A stretch of 64,000 bases of DNA from Crocinitomicaceae bacterium (GTDB lineage Bacteria; Bacteroidota; Bacteroidia; Flavobacteriales_D; Crocinitomicaceae): the NCBI GenBank assembly GCA_002709305.1, contig PAQM01000006.1, positions 124,001 to 188,000 on the forward strand, read 5' to 3'. Below, in pieces: positions 30,522-40,423 of the stretch (position 1 is its first letter; every line of letters starts with the position of its first letter). The notes under the pieces are model-generated. The model made no database searches, was not told the DNA's origin, and was given only the letters and a program-made list of their open reading frames with translations. The translations under genes were made by a program, and so were the position numbers.

Positions 30522-32423
30522 ATGAACATATTCTACTTTTATTTATTAATTCTAATTCATCCATACATATCGTTCTGGTTCATCAGTTTTAAACAAGCTG
30601 AACGAAAACAATGGGAAGCATTAATACCTATATATAATTATTTTATTGCTTTTAAATTAGGATGTAAAAAACCTTGGTGGTCTTTACTAATGATAGTACC
30701 AGGTGCACACCTAATAATGTGGTCAGTTTTAAACACCTCTTATATTAGAAGATTTGGTTATTTTTCATTCATTGATACCATTCAAGGTATTTTCTTTCCT
30801 TACATAATTTTATTTAGGATAACAAAAGAAAAAAATATATTATTACCTGAAACTAATTGGGCAAATAGTAAAGAAATGTCTGAACGTGAATGGGGTGACC
30901 ACATAGCATTGTTTTTAGCTTTACCAATTATTGGACATATAATTGCTTTAGGACTTGGAGCAGTGACTAGACACAAACCTGGAAAAAAATCAAAAGTAAA
31001 AGAATGGGGAGATTCCATCATTTTTGCACTTGTAGCAGCAAGTATTATTAGAACATATGTTTTTGAACCTTTTCAAATACCTACCGGTTCTATGGAAAAA
31101 ACATTATTGGTTGGTGATTTCTTATTTGTGAATAAGCTTATATATGGACCTAAAGTGCCTGTAACACCTCTATCCTACCCTTTAGTTCACAATACAGTTC
31201 CTTGGATAAATATAAAATCATACACTGAATTAGAGACTCTTGAATATACTAGACTTCCAGGATTTTCAAACGTCAAAAGAAACGATGTGGTAGTTTTTAA
31301 TTACCCATCAGGAGATACAGCTGTATATGACCCAAGAATGCCAAACGGATTAATGGGACATGACTATCATGGAATTTTGAATAAAGAAGCTTTATTACTC
31401 TGGCAAGAAAACAATTCTTATTTACCCAAAATAAAAAAACAATTTATAGATAGTATTAAAAAAGCTAACTCTCAAATTATATTGAATAATGAAAACGTTG
31501 CAGCATTTGCGTTACAGCAATCAAAAAATAAACTAATTAATTTTTATGGTAATGAGTTTATTGAAAATTATGAGATTTGGAGAAAAAAAGCAAGAAAAAA
31601 ATTAGCTGAAGATAAAATTGCATATGACCAAAGTACCGGAGGCACAATAAAACATTATGGTTTAATATACAGGCCAGTTGATAAAAGAGAAAACTATATT
31701 AAAAGGTGTGTTGGAATTCCTGGCGATACAATACAAATTATCAATTCTATTTTATATGTTAATAATGAAAAAGCATTTGTTCCTGAAAATCAAAATTTAC
31801 AATACATAGTTTCTAATGTTCTTCTTCCATCAAAATCTAGAATGGATGAGAAATATGATTTAGAAGATACTCGTGGTGATTATTATATAAATCCAAACGG
31901 AAATGGGACATATATTATGAACTTAACAAATAATCAACTTGAAAAATTAAAAAGAGCAAATCCTGAAGGAATTTTCAATCTAGTTAGATATCCTCAAATA
32001 CAAGATAGTATAGACATAAATACAAAAACATTTATAGATAATTTAAATTGTTTTCCTAAAGATTTCTATGTAAATAATACTATAACTGACTTTAATAAAT
32101 TTCAAATACCTTATGCAGGTCAAAAAATAAAAATAAACAACCAAAATATTGCTTGGTACAGAAGAATAATAACTGCGTATGAAGGACACTCTCTAAAAGA
32201 AATAAATAATGAAATTTGGATTGATAATAAAAAAGTAAATGAATATACATTTAAAATGAATTATTATTGGCTAATGGGAGACAATCGATTCAATTCTGCT
32301 GATTCCAGAGTTTGGGGCTTTGTTCCAGAAGATCATATTGTCGGAAAAGCTTCAATGGTATGGTTTTCTAAAAGCCCTTATCAAGGAATTAGATGGGAGC
32401 GTCTATTTAATATAATTAAATAA
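30522..32423 (+). CDS. lepB: Signal peptidase I, Bacteroidota form with large insertion
   Basis: Signal peptidase I removes Sec and Tat signal peptides on the outer face of the inner membrane. The 633-residue protein starts with about 150 residues carrying several membrane helices (not part of the classical enzyme), then a helix and the catalytic serine S190 in [11 protein letters not shown], the general-base lysine K394 in [11 protein letters not shown], and the C-terminal [22 protein letters not shown] box. About 200 residues lie between serine and lysine boxes, much more than in E. coli LepB (324 residues in all); such insertions occur in this phylum. The stop shares TAATG with wbqC. Confidence 0.95.
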
Positions 32424-35041: not shown

Positions 35042-35070
35042 GGCAACTAGAAAAAAACTAGCTCGTCTTT
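35042..35070 (+). promoter_or_regulatory. Candidate ECF-type promoter of the ECF sigma gene
   Basis: GGCAACT (35042-35048), 15 bases, CGTCTTT (35064-35070), ending 14 bases before the GTG at 35085. A GCAAC/GTAAC -35 with a CGTC-type -10 is the pattern of ECF sigma promoters and no housekeeping TAnnTTTG is present, so autoregulation is likely. The spacer contains AACTAG twice. Confidence 0.5.
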
Positions 35071-35084
35071 TTAATGAAAACAAT

Positions 35085-35654
35085 GTGGAGAATAAAGAAA
35101 AATTAAAGCATATAATCAACGGTTGTCTTGAAAACAAAAGACGTTCTCAAGAAGAGTTATTTAAGCTTTATTATGGAAAAATGATAAGTGTTTGTATGCG
35201 TTACACATTAGACAGAGATACAGCTGAGGAAGTTCTCCAAAAAGGTTTTATAAAGATATTTGAGAAATTAGAAGCATTTGACTATAAAGGTTCTTTTGAA
35301 GGATGGATAAGAAGAATTATGTGTAATACAGCAATTGATAATATTCGTAAAAATAAAAGAAACCCTAAATTAACAGATAATGAAAATGACTTTAAAATTG
35401 GATCCGAAAACCCAATAATTGAAGCAGAAGAACTAGAATTTATTGAAATGAAAGCTGAAATTGCTCTAGAAGCTATTAATAAATTATCACCTGCATATAA
35501 AACTGTATTTAATTTATATGTAATGGAGGAATATACTCATAAAGAAATTGGTCATATTCTTGGAATCAGTGAGGGAACGTCTAAATCTAATTTGTCAAAA
35601 GCTAAAATGAACCTTAAACAAATATTAAAAGAAAAATTCATGAATATTAAATAA
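35085..35654 (+). CDS. ECF-family RNA polymerase sigma factor
   Basis: The 189-residue protein has only regions 2 and 4, as ECF sigmas do. Region 2 holds YTLDRDTAEEVLQKGFIKIFEKL and FEGWIRRIMCNTAIDNIRKNKR (about residues 40-95); region 4 holds LSPAYKTVFNLYVMEEYTHKEI and GHILGISEGTSKSNLSKAKMNL (about 137-180). The GTG start is used because no in-frame ATG precedes the first conserved region. The next gene starts two bases after the stop and encodes a membrane protein, so the pair is a likely sigma/anti-sigma-like unit. Its promoter looks ECF-dependent. Target genes are unknown. Confidence 0.93.
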   Translation: MENKEKLKHIINGCLENKRRSQEELFKLYYGKMISVCMRYTLDRDTAEEVLQKGFIKIFEKLEAFDYKGSFEGWIRRIMCNTAIDNIRKNKRNPKLTDNENDFKIGSENPIIEAEELEFIEMKAEIALEAINKLSPAYKTVFNLYVMEEYTHKEIGHILGISEGTSKSNLSKAKMNLKQILKEKFMNIK

Positions 35655-35655
35655 A

Positions 35656-36918
35656 ATGAAAAATTTAGAAAACCATTTTAAAAAAATTTTAGAAAATCAT
35701 GAAATGCCTTATAATGAGAAGGCTTGGCATTCTTTAAAAACAAAACTTGACACAAAATCATCATTACAAAATAAACATAAGATTAAAATATATTCTTTAG
35801 TTACTGGAATTATAATAATCTCTTCTTTAATAATATATAACTTTTCATCAAATGACTCTAGTATTACATCAAAGAATATAAAGTCTAAAAATGATAAGAT
35901 AATGGAATATATGAAGAAAGAAGAAATAATTAGTCAACAAAATAATCGTGATATAAAAACTAATTTAATTGAAGACAAAAAAAGTATTACTCAGAATAAT
36001 CGAAAATCAATAGAAAAAAATATATCTGATAAAAAAACAAATCTAGAAGTTGAAAATAAATCTAAAGATATAAATCAAAATGATATAATTTTTGTTGATG
36101 AAAATAACACTAATTTAGAAGAAACAGAACCTAAAATTAATTATAATGAAAAGATTGTATTTGGTTTAAATTCCATAATACCTGAAATTAATAATTTATG
36201 TGAAGGTCAAACAATTAATATTAAAAATCCAAATAATACTGATCTTATCTTAAAAGGAAATGATTTATTAATAATAATACCAAAAAATTCTAACTATTCA
36301 GTAACCTTTAAATCAGCTGGTAATTACTCTATTAGTACAGAAAATAATACTAAAACTTTTATAGTTAAAAAATCACCTTTTATTGATTTCAATATTGATT
36401 TAGCAACAAAATTTGAAAATGGTATTCCAGTTACTAATGTCGAATGTAATCTACCTGGAAATAACTATCTATGGTCTTACAATAACAAAAATATTAACGG
36501 CAAGAAATCTACTGCACATTTCTATAAAAAAGGAAATCATGAAATATCATTAGAATTAACAGGTGTAAACGGATGTAAAAGCAGACTAAGTAAGTCAATA
36601 TATATAGAAGAATCCTATAATTTAATGGCTGTTAATTCTTTCATTCCAACTTCTATAGATTCACGTAAAAATAGATTTATACCATACGCTTTAACTAAAC
36701 GAAATGTGAAATTTCAGATGATTATAATCGATCCTAGTGATGGACATATTGTTTATCAAACTAATAATGCAAATGAAGGTTGGGATGGGATTGATCAAAA
36801 AACTGGAAAAATGGTTTCTTATAAATCAAATTACATTTGGAAGGTTGTTATTGATAATCCTGAGCCAAATGAAAACAACCAATATGTGGGTAGTATTATA
36901 CCAGTAAATTGGGAATAA
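35656..36918 (+). CDS. Membrane protein with cytoplasmic N-terminus, PKD-like and CHU_C-like C-terminal domains; probable sigma regulator
   Basis: The 420-residue product has no signal peptide. A short N-terminal part (1-43) carries MPYNEKAWHSLKTKLD, like the PPxxxWxxIxxxL motif seen at the start of many Bacteroidota proteins encoded after ECF sigmas. One helix (44-63) spans the inner membrane. Then come an Asn/Lys-rich linker (65-165), a PKD/Ig-like region (about 225-310, ending GNHEISLELTGVNGCKS), and a C-terminal segment like the gliding-motility CHU_C domain (NSFIPTSIDSRKNRFIP and NEGWDGIDQKTGK, about 322-420). CHU_C normally ends T9SS type B cargo, so its place on a membrane-anchored protein is odd. 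Two bases separate it from the sigma gene. I infer an anti-sigma or sensor role; no biochemical support. Confidence 0.75.
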   Translation: MKNLENHFKKILENHEMPYNEKAWHSLKTKLDTKSSLQNKHKIKIYSLVTGIIIISSLIIYNFSSNDSSITSKNIKSKNDKIMEYMKKEEIISQQNNRDIKTNLIEDKKSITQNNRKSIEKNISDKKTNLEVENKSKDINQNDIIFVDENNTNLEETEPKINYNEKIVFGLNSIIPEINNLCEGQTINIKNPNNTDLILKGNDLLIIIPKNSNYSVTFKSAGNYSISTENNTKTFIVKKSPFIDFNIDLATKFENGIPVTNVECNLPGNNYLWSYNNKNINGKKSTAHFYKKGNHEISLELTGVNGCKSRLSKSIYIEESYNLMAVNSFIPTSIDSRKNRFIPYALTKRNVKFQMIIIDPSDGHIVYQTNNANEGWDGIDQKTGKMVSYKSNYIWKVVIDNPEPNENNQYVGSIIPVNWE

Positions 36919-37863: not shown

Positions 37864-39518
37864 TATTTCATTAAAACTCGAGCATTATCTATGGCTACAT
37901 CTTTAATCTCAGAACCACTCATTAATCTAGCTATTTCTTCCACACGTTCATTATCTGATAATTCTTTAACTACTATTTTAGTTATATTATTATCAACAAA
38001 CTTTATTACTTTTAAATGCTGTGTTGCCTTAGCAGCTACTTGAGGTAAATGAGTAATTGCTATTACTTGAATATCTTTACCCATTTTTTTCATCATATTA
38101 CCCATTTTTTGAGCAACATCTCCTGAAACTCCAGTGTCAATTTCATCAAAAAATATTGATCTTAAATTAACTTGAGAAGACATTAAACTTTTTAAAACTA
38201 ACATAACTCTAGAAAGTTCTCCACCACTTACTGCATTATCAATAGAGACAGGATTAACTCCGACATTTGGACTAAATAAAAGCTCTAATATCGAATTACC
38301 GTATTCATTTAATTCTTTAGCATTAGTCTTAGTTAGATTAAATTTTAAAACTGTATTACCTAATTTTAAATCAGTTAATTTTTGTAATACTTTTTTTTCA
38401 ATTTCAGGAATTGACTCTAATCTTTTAGTATGAAGATTTTCAGCTAAATTAAATAAAGTGCTTTCTTCTTTTAATATTTCTTTAGATAATTCTTGAATAT
38501 TTTTTTCTAATTCTTCTTTATGGAAAGAAAAATCTGAAAGTTGATTCTGTAATTTAATTAATTCACTTTGGGAAGTTTTATTATGTTTTTGAAGAATCCT
38601 GTTATACCTATCTAACAAATTTATTAAAACCTCTATTCTATTTGGATTAGACTCTATTTTATTAAGTGTAAAATCAGCTTCTGAAGCTATATCTATTGAT
38701 TCAATTAATAAAGAATTAATTCTATCAAATAATAGATTTAGATGATCAGTAAAATTTTCACTTTTTGAAAGTAATAGCTTCAATTTGTTTAACCTTTCAT
38801 GAATCCCCGCATCACATTGAAAATATTCAATAATATTAGCATAACTAAAACGAATACTATCTACATTTTCCAATTCTATTAATTCATTTTGTAATTCATC
38901 ATATTTATGAGAATTAAGTTCTAATTCAATTAATTCATTTAATTGAAAATTATTATAATCAAATTCAGAAATACTTCGAGATAATTCAACTTTTAAGTCA
39001 TTTAATTTCTTTTTTTTATGTATTAAATTCGAGAAATTTATTGAAAATTCTTCTTGGTCTTTATATGTTCCAGATAATACATCCAAAACTTTCATTTGAA
39101 AATCTGATTTTTTTAATTCAAGAGAATGAAATTGAGAATGAATATTGATTAGTTGAGAAGAAAATTCTTGTAAGATATTTAAATGAACTGGTGTATCATT
39201 AATAAAAGCACGAGATTTACCTTGCTTAATTATTTCTCTACGTATAATAGTATCATTGCAATAATCTAAATCATGTTTACTAAAAAAATCTTCAAGGTTA
39301 AACTCTTTAATACAAAAAATTGCTTCTACAACTGATTTATTAGACAAATTACCTACAACAGAAAAATCAGCACGCTTACCCAAAACTAAGGCTAATGAAT
39401 TCAACAATATAGACTTCCCTGAACCTGTTTCACCAGTAATTACAGTAAAATCATTATTGAAATTAATCAACAATTTATCAATAAATACAAAATTTTCTAT
39501 GCTTAATGATTTTATCAT
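37863..39518 (-). CDS. recN: DNA repair protein RecN
   Basis: RecN is an SMC-like ATPase for double-strand break repair. From ATG 39518 the protein has 551 residues: Walker A ITGETGSGKSILLNSL near residue 29, long coiled-coil arms (about 150-370), and the C-terminal NAVSGGELSRVMLVLKSL and IFFDEIDTGVSG (signature and Walker B). A TTG three bases upstream is in frame, but ATG fits an ATGA overlap with the stop of the PorD-like gene. Flavobacteriia typically show bamD - rpoZ - coaBC - porD-like - recN in this order, from memory. Confidence 0.95.
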   Translation of the reverse strand: MIKSLSIENFVFIDKLLINFNNDFTVITGETGSGKSILLNSLALVLGKRADFSVVGNLSNKSVVEAIFCIKEFNLEDFFSKHDLDYCNDTIIRREIIKQGKSRAFINDTPVHLNILQEFSSQLINIHSQFHSLELKKSDFQMKVLDVLSGTYKDQEEFSINFSNLIHKKKKLNDLKVELSRSISEFDYNNFQLNELIELELNSHKYDELQNELIELENVDSIRFSYANIIEYFQCDAGIHERLNKLKLLLSKSENFTDHLNLLFDRINSLLIESIDIASEADFTLNKIESNPNRIEVLINLLDRYNRILQKHNKTSQSELIKLQNQLSDFSFHKEELEKNIQELSKEILKEESTLFNLAENLHTKRLESIPEIEKKVLQKLTDLKLGNTVLKFNLTKTNAKELNEYGNSILELLFSPNVGVNPVSIDNAVSGGELSRVMLVLKSLMSSQVNLRSIFFDEIDTGVSGDVAQKMGNMMKKMGKDIQVIAITHLPQVAAKATQHLKVIKFVDNNITKIVVKELSDNERVEEIARLMSGSEIKDVAIDNARVLMK

Positions 39519-40423
39519 CAATTTAATATCTCCTGATATTTAGAAGAATTTGCAGGATCTATTCTTTTTAAAAGATTTACAATTTCGTTTTTTTCTTTAA
39601 TTTCTGCTTCGGAATACATGTTCTTTAATTCATTAGTTTTTGCCTGCATAAAATTTAAAACATTCAAAGAGCTCGGACGTGTTGCTGTAACCTTAATTAA
39701 TTTACTCAAAGCTGAATAAATATTAGATTTAGCTGACTTATCATCATCATATAATAAATCTATGCCCTTACGGTGATATAAATACATACAGTCTCTTAAA
39801 GGAGAAAATAATTCATGAAGAATATTGTCGATTAACCAATAACGATTATTTTTTCCACGTGATGAACTTTTCCAACCCGAATTTGAAGAAGACTGAGCAT
39901 TACTAACTATCTCTTGAGCAATTGTAAACAAATCTGTTCCACCTTTATTACTAAAGGAATCATAATCCATACCAAGAATAAAATAAGCATAAAATGCTAA
40001 AACAGATGACAACTCATCTCTATATTGGTTTGGTGCGTAGATTAAAGCCGCTCCGCGTGAATAAGTAAATGAAATATCATCATCTTGAAAATTAAATAAA
40101 GTAGTATTATAGTTTGAATTAAATGCTGGACGTGAGCTTTGAATTTGAAGAGAGCCTGAAAAAGTACCAGATACTGGAATTTCATTAATTTGAAGTTGTA
40201 AGTTACAGTTAACTCTTTCCTCAACTGTAAAATTATCTCTAGTCCACTGTGTATTATTCATGAAATCATAGATAGTATTTTCGAGTTCTGTAATCATTTC
40301 TTTATCAAGAGTAGTTAGCTCTAGACGTGCATCAGAGATAATACTAACCTGACAGTTTAATTCTTGAGAATCAAGCTTAAATATTAACAGAAATAATGAA
40401 ATGAGTAATGAAATATACTTCAA
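39518..40423 (-). CDS. DUF4835 family protein, T9SS PorD-like
   Basis: The 301-residue protein matches DUF4835, which databases name type IX secretion system protein PorD; the mechanism is not known. It has a signal peptide (about 1-19, ending LDSQE). Family segments are LNCQVSIISDARLE, INEIPVSGTFSGSLQIQSSRPAFNSNY and DNILHELFSPLRDCMYLYHRKGIDLL. The start is a TTG that overlaps the coaBC stop (TTGA); no in-frame ATG gives a complete signal peptide. It fits the T9SS-type peptidase elsewhere in the window. Confidence 0.88.
   Translation of the reverse strand: MKYISLLISLFLLIFKLDSQELNCQVSIISDARLELTTLDKEMITELENTIYDFMNNTQWTRDNFTVEERVNCNLQLQINEIPVSGTFSGSLQIQSSRPAFNSNYNTTLFNFQDDDISFTYSRGAALIYAPNQYRDELSSVLAFYAYFILGMDYDSFSNKGGTDLFTIAQEIVSNAQSSSNSGWKSSSRGKNNRYWLIDNILHELFSPLRDCMYLYHRKGIDLLYDDDKSAKSNIYSALSKLIKVTATRPSSLNVLNFMQAKTNELKNMYSEAEIKEKNEIVNLLKRIDPANSSKYQEILN

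Follow-up and report, generated by a model that had tools for sequence, protein, structure and literature searches.

How Bacteroidota match the production of very large surface proteins of the type IX secretion system (T9SS) to export capacity is a question to which, to our knowledge, no answer is known. It is raised here by a pair of adjoining genes, encoding an extracytoplasmic function (ECF) sigma factor and a membrane protein with an end resembling a T9SS type B export signal, located in a stretch of 64,000 nucleotides (the window) that is part of contig C6 in a 2.3-Mb genome. In the sections available to us of the papers on Porphyromonas gingivalis (PorXY-SigP) and Flavobacterium psychrophilum (SM6 promoters), control of the T9SS concerns mainly the genes of the machine (PMC7712824, PMC9723704). 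The most probable reading of the pair, to which we give a probability of about 0.6, is that of an ECF sigma factor and a tethered membrane anti-sigma that acts as a cargo mimic and gauges T9SS cargo load.

The Sigma Gene and Its Partner

The product of the sigma gene scores 105.4 bits against TIGR02937 (cut-off 42.9), which identifies it as an ECF sigma factor, and both PF04542 and PF08281, corresponding to sigma regions 2 and 4, match above their cut-offs. Its closest named relatives are found in Crocinitomicaceae and Fluviicola MAGs of the order Flavobacteriales. The 420-aa partner is encoded at 35656–36918, and a single base separates its start from the sigma stop codon; the sequence-only reading had counted two. 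A plasmid search found nothing. The gene of the T9SS protein PorD (333.5 bits) is located at positions 39518–40423 of the window on the minus strand, 2.6 kb from the pair, with no sign that the proximity matters. The features of the locus are listed in Table 1.

Table 1. Features of the sigma/partner locus; coordinates are those of the window
Feature	Coordinates	Strand	Basis
ECF-type promoter: -35 GGCAAC (35042–35047), 16-bp spacer, -10 CGTCTTT (35064–35070)	35042–35070	+	Sequence, conservation
ECF sigma factor, 189 aa	35085–35654	+	ORF call and profile matches; GTG start; VENK start in most near relatives
Partner, cytoplasmic N-terminal module, residues 1–43, motif PYN..AW..L..KLD; proposed sigma-binding part	35656–35784	+	Sequence; two low-confidence helices in model
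Partner, single membrane helix, about residues 44–62	35785–35841	+	Sequence, hydropathy of 80 family members; helix 49–62 in model
Partner, disordered periplasmic tether, about residues 63–170	35842–36165	+	pLDDT under 50 for residues 33–170
Partner, first Ig/PKD-like beta domain, about residues 178–238	36187–36369	+	Model; relatives L155, L157 and L163 each have two stretches matching PKD
Partner, PKD domain, residues 238–320	36367–36615	+	4aqo: Z 11.2, rmsd 1.9, 79 residues aligned
Partner, CHU_C-like (T9SS type B signal) domain, residues 320–420; WDG retained, cargo RWG replaced	36613–36915	+	Family-level sequence comparison

Conservation of the Pair

With an E limit of 1e-6, the partner protein matched in 199 of the 200 genomes of the family that were searched, in some cases through the cargo-like end only. 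The sigma gene lies upstream in all 29 loci retrieved by the partner (L007–L035). Conversely, the partner lies downstream in all nine near loci retrieved by the sigma factor (L036–L044), several of which share contigs with the first group. Four sigma-retrieved loci remain: the sequence of L045 stops shortly past the sigma gene, and L046–L048 are distant.

Among the matches listed for 120 genomes of the order, full-length partner proteins are spread over many families. An order-wide set of 50 loci from 11 families was composed of the 30 best matches and 20 others picked for coverage of the other families. The sigma gene adjoins the partner gene in all 50. The proposal of the sequence-only reading that an ECF sigma gene is paired with a one-pass membrane partner is supported by both ORFs and by this adjacency, the membrane orientation being predicted from the sequence.

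Among 99 genomes sampled across the phylum, matches reaching the N terminus at E ≤ 1e-20 were found only in the genome of the window itself and in one other (G207), both of the order. Similar proteins common in genomes that lack the T9SS would have spoken against the sequence-only reading; none of the 96 sampled genomes outside the order has such a match, which agrees with it in part, the sample being one not sorted by presence of the T9SS. In ten of these 96 genomes, only C-terminal, cargo-like matches were found.

Contig C22 of this assembly, which may or may not derive from the same organism, contains a second, simpler pair of an ECF sigma factor and a CHU_C protein (L232). The partner protein of that pair has a canonical CHU_C domain above the cut-off and no PKD match; a W-like motif, a single hydrophobic segment and a charged linker are also present. 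A loose GCAAC-N17-AGTCTT can be noted by eye upstream of this pair.

Architecture of the Membrane Partner

About 43 mostly polar residues precede the sole strong hydrophobic segment of the partner. This arrangement, read from the sequence, argues against a Sec signal peptide, and the N terminus is predicted to be cytoplasmic and the ectodomain periplasmic. The W-based module in residues 1–43 would be the part that binds the sigma factor. In some anti-sigmas (L163, L014, L023, L041–L043), this module is present two or three times, and in 10 of 80 family members the hydrophobic segment begins at residue 72 or beyond.

The AlphaFold model, built with nine sequences, contains an ectodomain at about residues 171–420 (block means of 82 to 95) preceded by a disordered region at residues 33–170. 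The distance between the membrane helix and the first cysteine has a median of 120.5 residues and is at least 97 residues in 79 of the 80 family members.

The presence of PKD and CHU_C domains had been proposed from the sequence, and this claim fared differently at two levels. The window protein alone, compared with Pfam and NCBIfam, yields only sub-threshold chance matches and neither a CHU_C nor a PKD match, which taken literally counts against the claim. Single-protein scans were therefore replaced by family profiles, and with these both domains are significant, the PKD domain being recovered in the model as well. An HMM constructed from 14 CHU_C cargo domains of the same genome matches all 34 family members with E values from 1.3e-15 to 1.5e-9 (3.2e-10 for the window protein), and it is matched at 49 of the 50 order-wide loci, with the exception of L275. 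Profile–profile comparison of the anti-sigma family with the CHU_C cargo of this genome gives E = 3.4e-18. At E ≤ 0.1, members of alignment A2 match PF13585 (CHU_C) in 7 of 10 cases, PF18911 (PKD_4) in 6 of 10 and TIGR04131 in 5 of 10. Relatives from other genera exceed the curated cut-offs for both PKD and CHU_C (L155 and L163), and L157, also of another genus, does so for PKD_4 (98.2 bits), CHU_C (53.6) and TIGR04131 (39.7).

Residues 238–319 of the model superpose on the PKD domain 4aqo, which supports a predicted PKD fold in the partner. The three fold lists obtained for the family were filled by other domains, so that the CHU_C part was assessed by sequence only; by these comparisons, a CHU_C domain is present at the C terminus of the partner at the level of the family.

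The Promoter of the Sigma Gene

The sequence GGCAACT-N15-CGTCTTT occurs once in the window, ending 14 bp ahead of the sigma GTG, and in none of 100 shuffles. The first set comprises 34 distinct regions upstream of sigma genes, that of the window included; 33 of them contain [GA]GCAAC-N16-CGT and one contains the same boxes with N17, the distance from CGT to the sigma start being 17–20 bp. The pattern [GA]GCAAC-N16/N17-CGT was met in only 2 of 6800 shuffled copies. In the order-wide set, GCAAC-N15..17-CGT is found ahead of the sigma gene at 50 of 50 loci in 11 families. The autoregulation that the sequence-only reading had deduced from a candidate promoter is thus supported, as far as a conserved sequence motif can indicate it.

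A position weight matrix (PWM) of the sigma promoter was also tried, and it gave low scores to the cargo promoters of the same genome. The probable cause is that spacer sequence and the bases ahead of the sigma start had entered the matrix as well, and one string among the 33 used for training seems spurious. The plain pattern was therefore preferred.

Sites of the Motif in the Genome of the Window

The genome has 23 matches to TIGR04131, 20 of them above the cut-off, and eight PorP/SprF genes in addition to the PorD gene of the window. Eight GCAAC-N16-CGTC sites were detected, four of them on foreign-looking contigs. The matches on contigs C9, C14 and C21 were set aside because their GC-rich spacers suggest contaminating DNA (the listed contamination is 3.95%). 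The other four sites precede the sigma gene, two CHU_C genes (loci L058 and L057; sites C12:46781 and C3:15798) and a small lipoprotein-like gene that is not type B cargo (L059; site C12:173029). The CHU_C domain of L057 scores 31.8 bits, which is under the cut-off. At L059, the lipoprotein-like gene is followed by that of a short protein with an end that looks type A-like by eye.

A third CHU_C gene, L127, is preceded by GCAAC-N16-CGT. With the looser pattern GCAAC-N15..17-CGT, a site is present ahead of 3 of 20 CHU_C genes of the genome, with 17 of 20 lacking it, and ahead of none of 60 genes of the window, the sigma gene excluded. These 20 are the CHU_C genes with readable upstream DNA; three of the 23 were omitted, two located at contig ends and one belonging to the C22 pair. 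The six other sigma-family genes of the genome all lack an adjoining GCAAC-N16-CGTC site, which favours the sigma factor studied here as the reader of the motif.

The Apparent Regulon in Genomes of the Family

In 60 genomes of the family, GGCAAC-N16-CGTCT occurs at 68 sites, compared with 33 for the reversed pattern. At least one exact site is present in 35 of the 60 genomes, and none in the other 25. Fifty-seven of the 68 sites were read; those left out comprise three from the genome of the window and eight next to known anti-sigma genes. Four of the 57 proved to be further sigma/anti-sigma pairs.

A CHU_C domain is encoded within the first three operon genes at 20 of the 53 non-self motif sites versus 0 of 33 control sites (Fisher, 1.3e-5). 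Control sites lie mostly inside open frames (27 of 33 within a frame of at least 100 aa, compared with 14 of 57 motif sites), so the base rate is the fairer comparison: in control DNA, a CHU_C domain is found within three genes at 3 of 411 gene starts. Restricting the count to the first gene gave CHU_C at 13 of the 57 motif sites and at none of the 33 controls. The rule was widened to three operon genes after small first genes had been seen, and it then gave 24 of 57 sites (the 20 of 53 when non-self), the control again being 0 of 33. The operon parser misses L173, L180 and L185, which have CHU_C by simpler parses and are absent from the 24, and at 8 of the 57 sites the operon extends beyond the sequence read. 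First genes that look exported by a crude hydropathy rule were found at 31 of 57 motif sites versus 0 of 33 control sites.

At seven loci (L165, L166, L168, L169, L172, L174, L181), a small first gene of 86–137 aa, in most cases with a start resembling an export signal, precedes a large CHU_C cargo gene. Comparison of two of these small proteins (L172 and L174) with Pfam gave no significant match. They are possibly cargo-specific partners.

Motif Sites in Other Families of the Order

In 29 genomes of other families, 84 sites were found, compared with 23 for the reversed pattern; their positions identify 17 of the 84 as promoters of the sigma gene itself. Of the remaining sites, 41 in 40 regions, selected before their genes were seen, were read and 26 were left out. 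CHU_C was found at 11 of the 41, and these all belong to the 25 sites read in families other than f9. Within f9, CHU_C is nearby at 0 of the 16 sites read, although this family has CHU_C anti-sigmas. Half of the f9 sites (8 of 16) precede one family of small membrane proteins, grouped by eye.

The motif stands ahead of a membrane protein of about 140–150 aa at L374, L378, L380, L381, L383, L384, L385 and L387 of f9 and at L365 of family f2. The L380 protein, the only one of the group tested, is a DUF5684 protein. A DUF5684 domain also begins the signal peptidase encoded at 30522–32423 of the window.

One site (L353) is located directly upstream of a PorP/SprF gene (173.5 bits), and at L361 a PorP/SprF gene lies downstream of the CHU_C gene. 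As the motif precedes type B cargo operons and one tested PorP/SprF gene, the link with the T9SS is stronger than the sequence-only reading could see.

Loss of the RWG Motif in Anti-Sigma CHU_C Domains

The partly available report on the type B C-terminal domain (CTD) of SprB from F. johnsoniae states that each of its five conserved motifs is needed for secretion and that PorP/SprF shuttles handle type B signals (PMC12618676). RWG would be one of these five motifs. It is retained, as [RKHN][WY]G, in 13 of 14 CHU_C cargo domains of the genome of the window and in 28 of 32 motif-linked ones, versus 1 of 34 and 3 of 50 anti-sigmas in two overlapping sets; the window protein lacks it. In the same anti-sigma sets, 32 of 34 and 42 of 50 members keep W[DNTS][GA], and 24 of 34 and 35 of 50 have K or R within the five C-terminal residues.

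A fold that is kept while one motif is gone fits a mimic that docks and is not exported; it also fits a relic, and the anti-sigma CHU_C domains, having lost RWG, may no longer bind the T9SS. The latter is the essence of the main rival explanation, according to which the pair is an ordinary envelope-sensing sigma/anti-sigma system, with Ig-PKD-CHU_C as a generic beta-sandwich sensor of ligand or stress that has no contact with the T9SS. The absence of RWG from nearly all anti-sigmas examined would be expected from a relic, as would the divergence of the window copy, in which Pfam and NCBIfam miss both domains, and the f9 sites are not ahead of cargo. Against this explanation stand the other conserved motifs of the domain and the finding, made in two separate samples, that the promoter motif occurs ahead of type B cargo operons, and we consider it unlikely, though not negligible. 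Probably, the sigma factor drives CHU_C cargo genes, and the CHU_C domain on its partner differs from that of cargo in one motif.

Proposed Mechanism and Alternatives

Beyond the observation that the promoter motif precedes cargo operons, every step of the cargo-mimic mechanism is what we infer. The cytoplasmic W-module would hold the sigma factor, and the tether would in principle be long enough to span to the outer membrane, as described for the Dma family. The CHU_C end would dock on a reader of type B signals, either the translocon or a PorP/SprF shuttle, and would stay unexported because the RWG motif is gone. Cargo awaiting export would compete with it. When the machinery is free, the tether would be engaged and the sigma factor released, by pulling or clipping, so that cargo is made; with a backlog of cargo, the anti-sigma would drop off and recapture the sigma factor. 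This sign, in which free machinery releases the sigma factor, is the most likely one and at the same time the least certain step of the scheme, with chances that we put slightly below even.

In the flagellum, the secretion state of the machine gates sigma 28, required for late products, through FlgM. The logic is alike, although FlgM is soluble and exported, whereas the partner described here is membrane-anchored and unrelated. In its widest form, our proposal is that a copy of the type B signal, tethered to the membrane and unable to be exported, reads export load and gates the ECF sigma factor that makes type B cargo. The circuit would be the T9SS equivalent of the FlgM checkpoint and would be kept in 11 or more families of a single order; in this form it is tentative, and we hold it to be rather more doubtful than probable.

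The opposite sign would give positive feedback: the anti-sigma, docked at the outer membrane, would hold the sigma factor at rest, and periplasmic cargo would displace it, freeing the sigma factor for a burst of cargo and shuttles. The shuttle gene behind the motif at L353 and the PorP/SprF gene following the CHU_C gene at L361 agree with this scheme, but its stability needs a second brake and the sequence gives no support for such a sign, which makes it improbable. That the 420-aa protein is surface cargo merely sharing the sigma operon is hardly credible: CHU_C and PKD are typical of cargo, but the polar 43-residue N terminus precedes the hydrophobic segment, the W-module is conserved and sometimes repeated, and a sigma gene adjoins in every locus read.

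Comparison with Known Systems

According to the part of the report available, the Dma family, which acts with the ECF21 sigma factor Das in Bacteroides thetaiotaomicron, shares with the cargo-mimic candidate an N-terminal sigma-binding part, one helix, a long disordered tether, a C-terminal beta domain and an adjacent sigma gene (PMC13088901). The long disordered tether after one membrane helix, a trait of the Dma family, is found in the partner. However, Dma proteins end in an outer-membrane beta-barrel, as described in the same portion of that report, whereas the partner ends in Ig-PKD-CHU_C in place of a barrel; the likeness noted is one of plan (PMC13088901). A marginal match (9.5 bits) was obtained between the N-terminal module and L046, which is the partner protein of a distant ECF sigma factor, and the single-sequence AlphaFold model of L046 is too poor to show a barrel.

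In the PorA-PorXY-SigP system of P. gingivalis, as far as the accessible text describes it, a protein with a T9SS signal domain likewise acts upstream of an ECF sigma factor controlling T9SS genes; there, the T9SS CTD belongs to PorA, a surface protein in its own right that acts via a two-component system, whereas here a type B-like domain is located inside the membrane partner of the sigma factor (PMC7712824). The SM6 ECF promoter regulon of F. psychrophilum also has CGT-box promoters before T9SS genes and an ECF/anti-sigma pair (PMC9723704). Among the targets printed in that study are the T9SS components GldN and PorU; the likeness noted is one of promoter and targets (PMC9723704).

ECF sigma factors with tethered membrane anti-sigmas are already known, and the P. 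gingivalis work connects an ECF sigma factor with a protein that has a T9SS CTD (PMC7712824). The new part is that a type B signal domain belongs to the anti-sigma itself and that cargo genes follow the same promoter. Literature searches for this combination, with subscription papers and the ECF classification tables outside their scope, found no description of it.

With the conserved sigma factor, its promoter, the apparent cargo regulon and the tag-copying partner laid out together, the question of how production is matched to export becomes testable by short genetic experiments. If the proposal is true, a secretion signal would have been reused as a sensor, and the cell may match the production of tagged proteins to its ability to export them.
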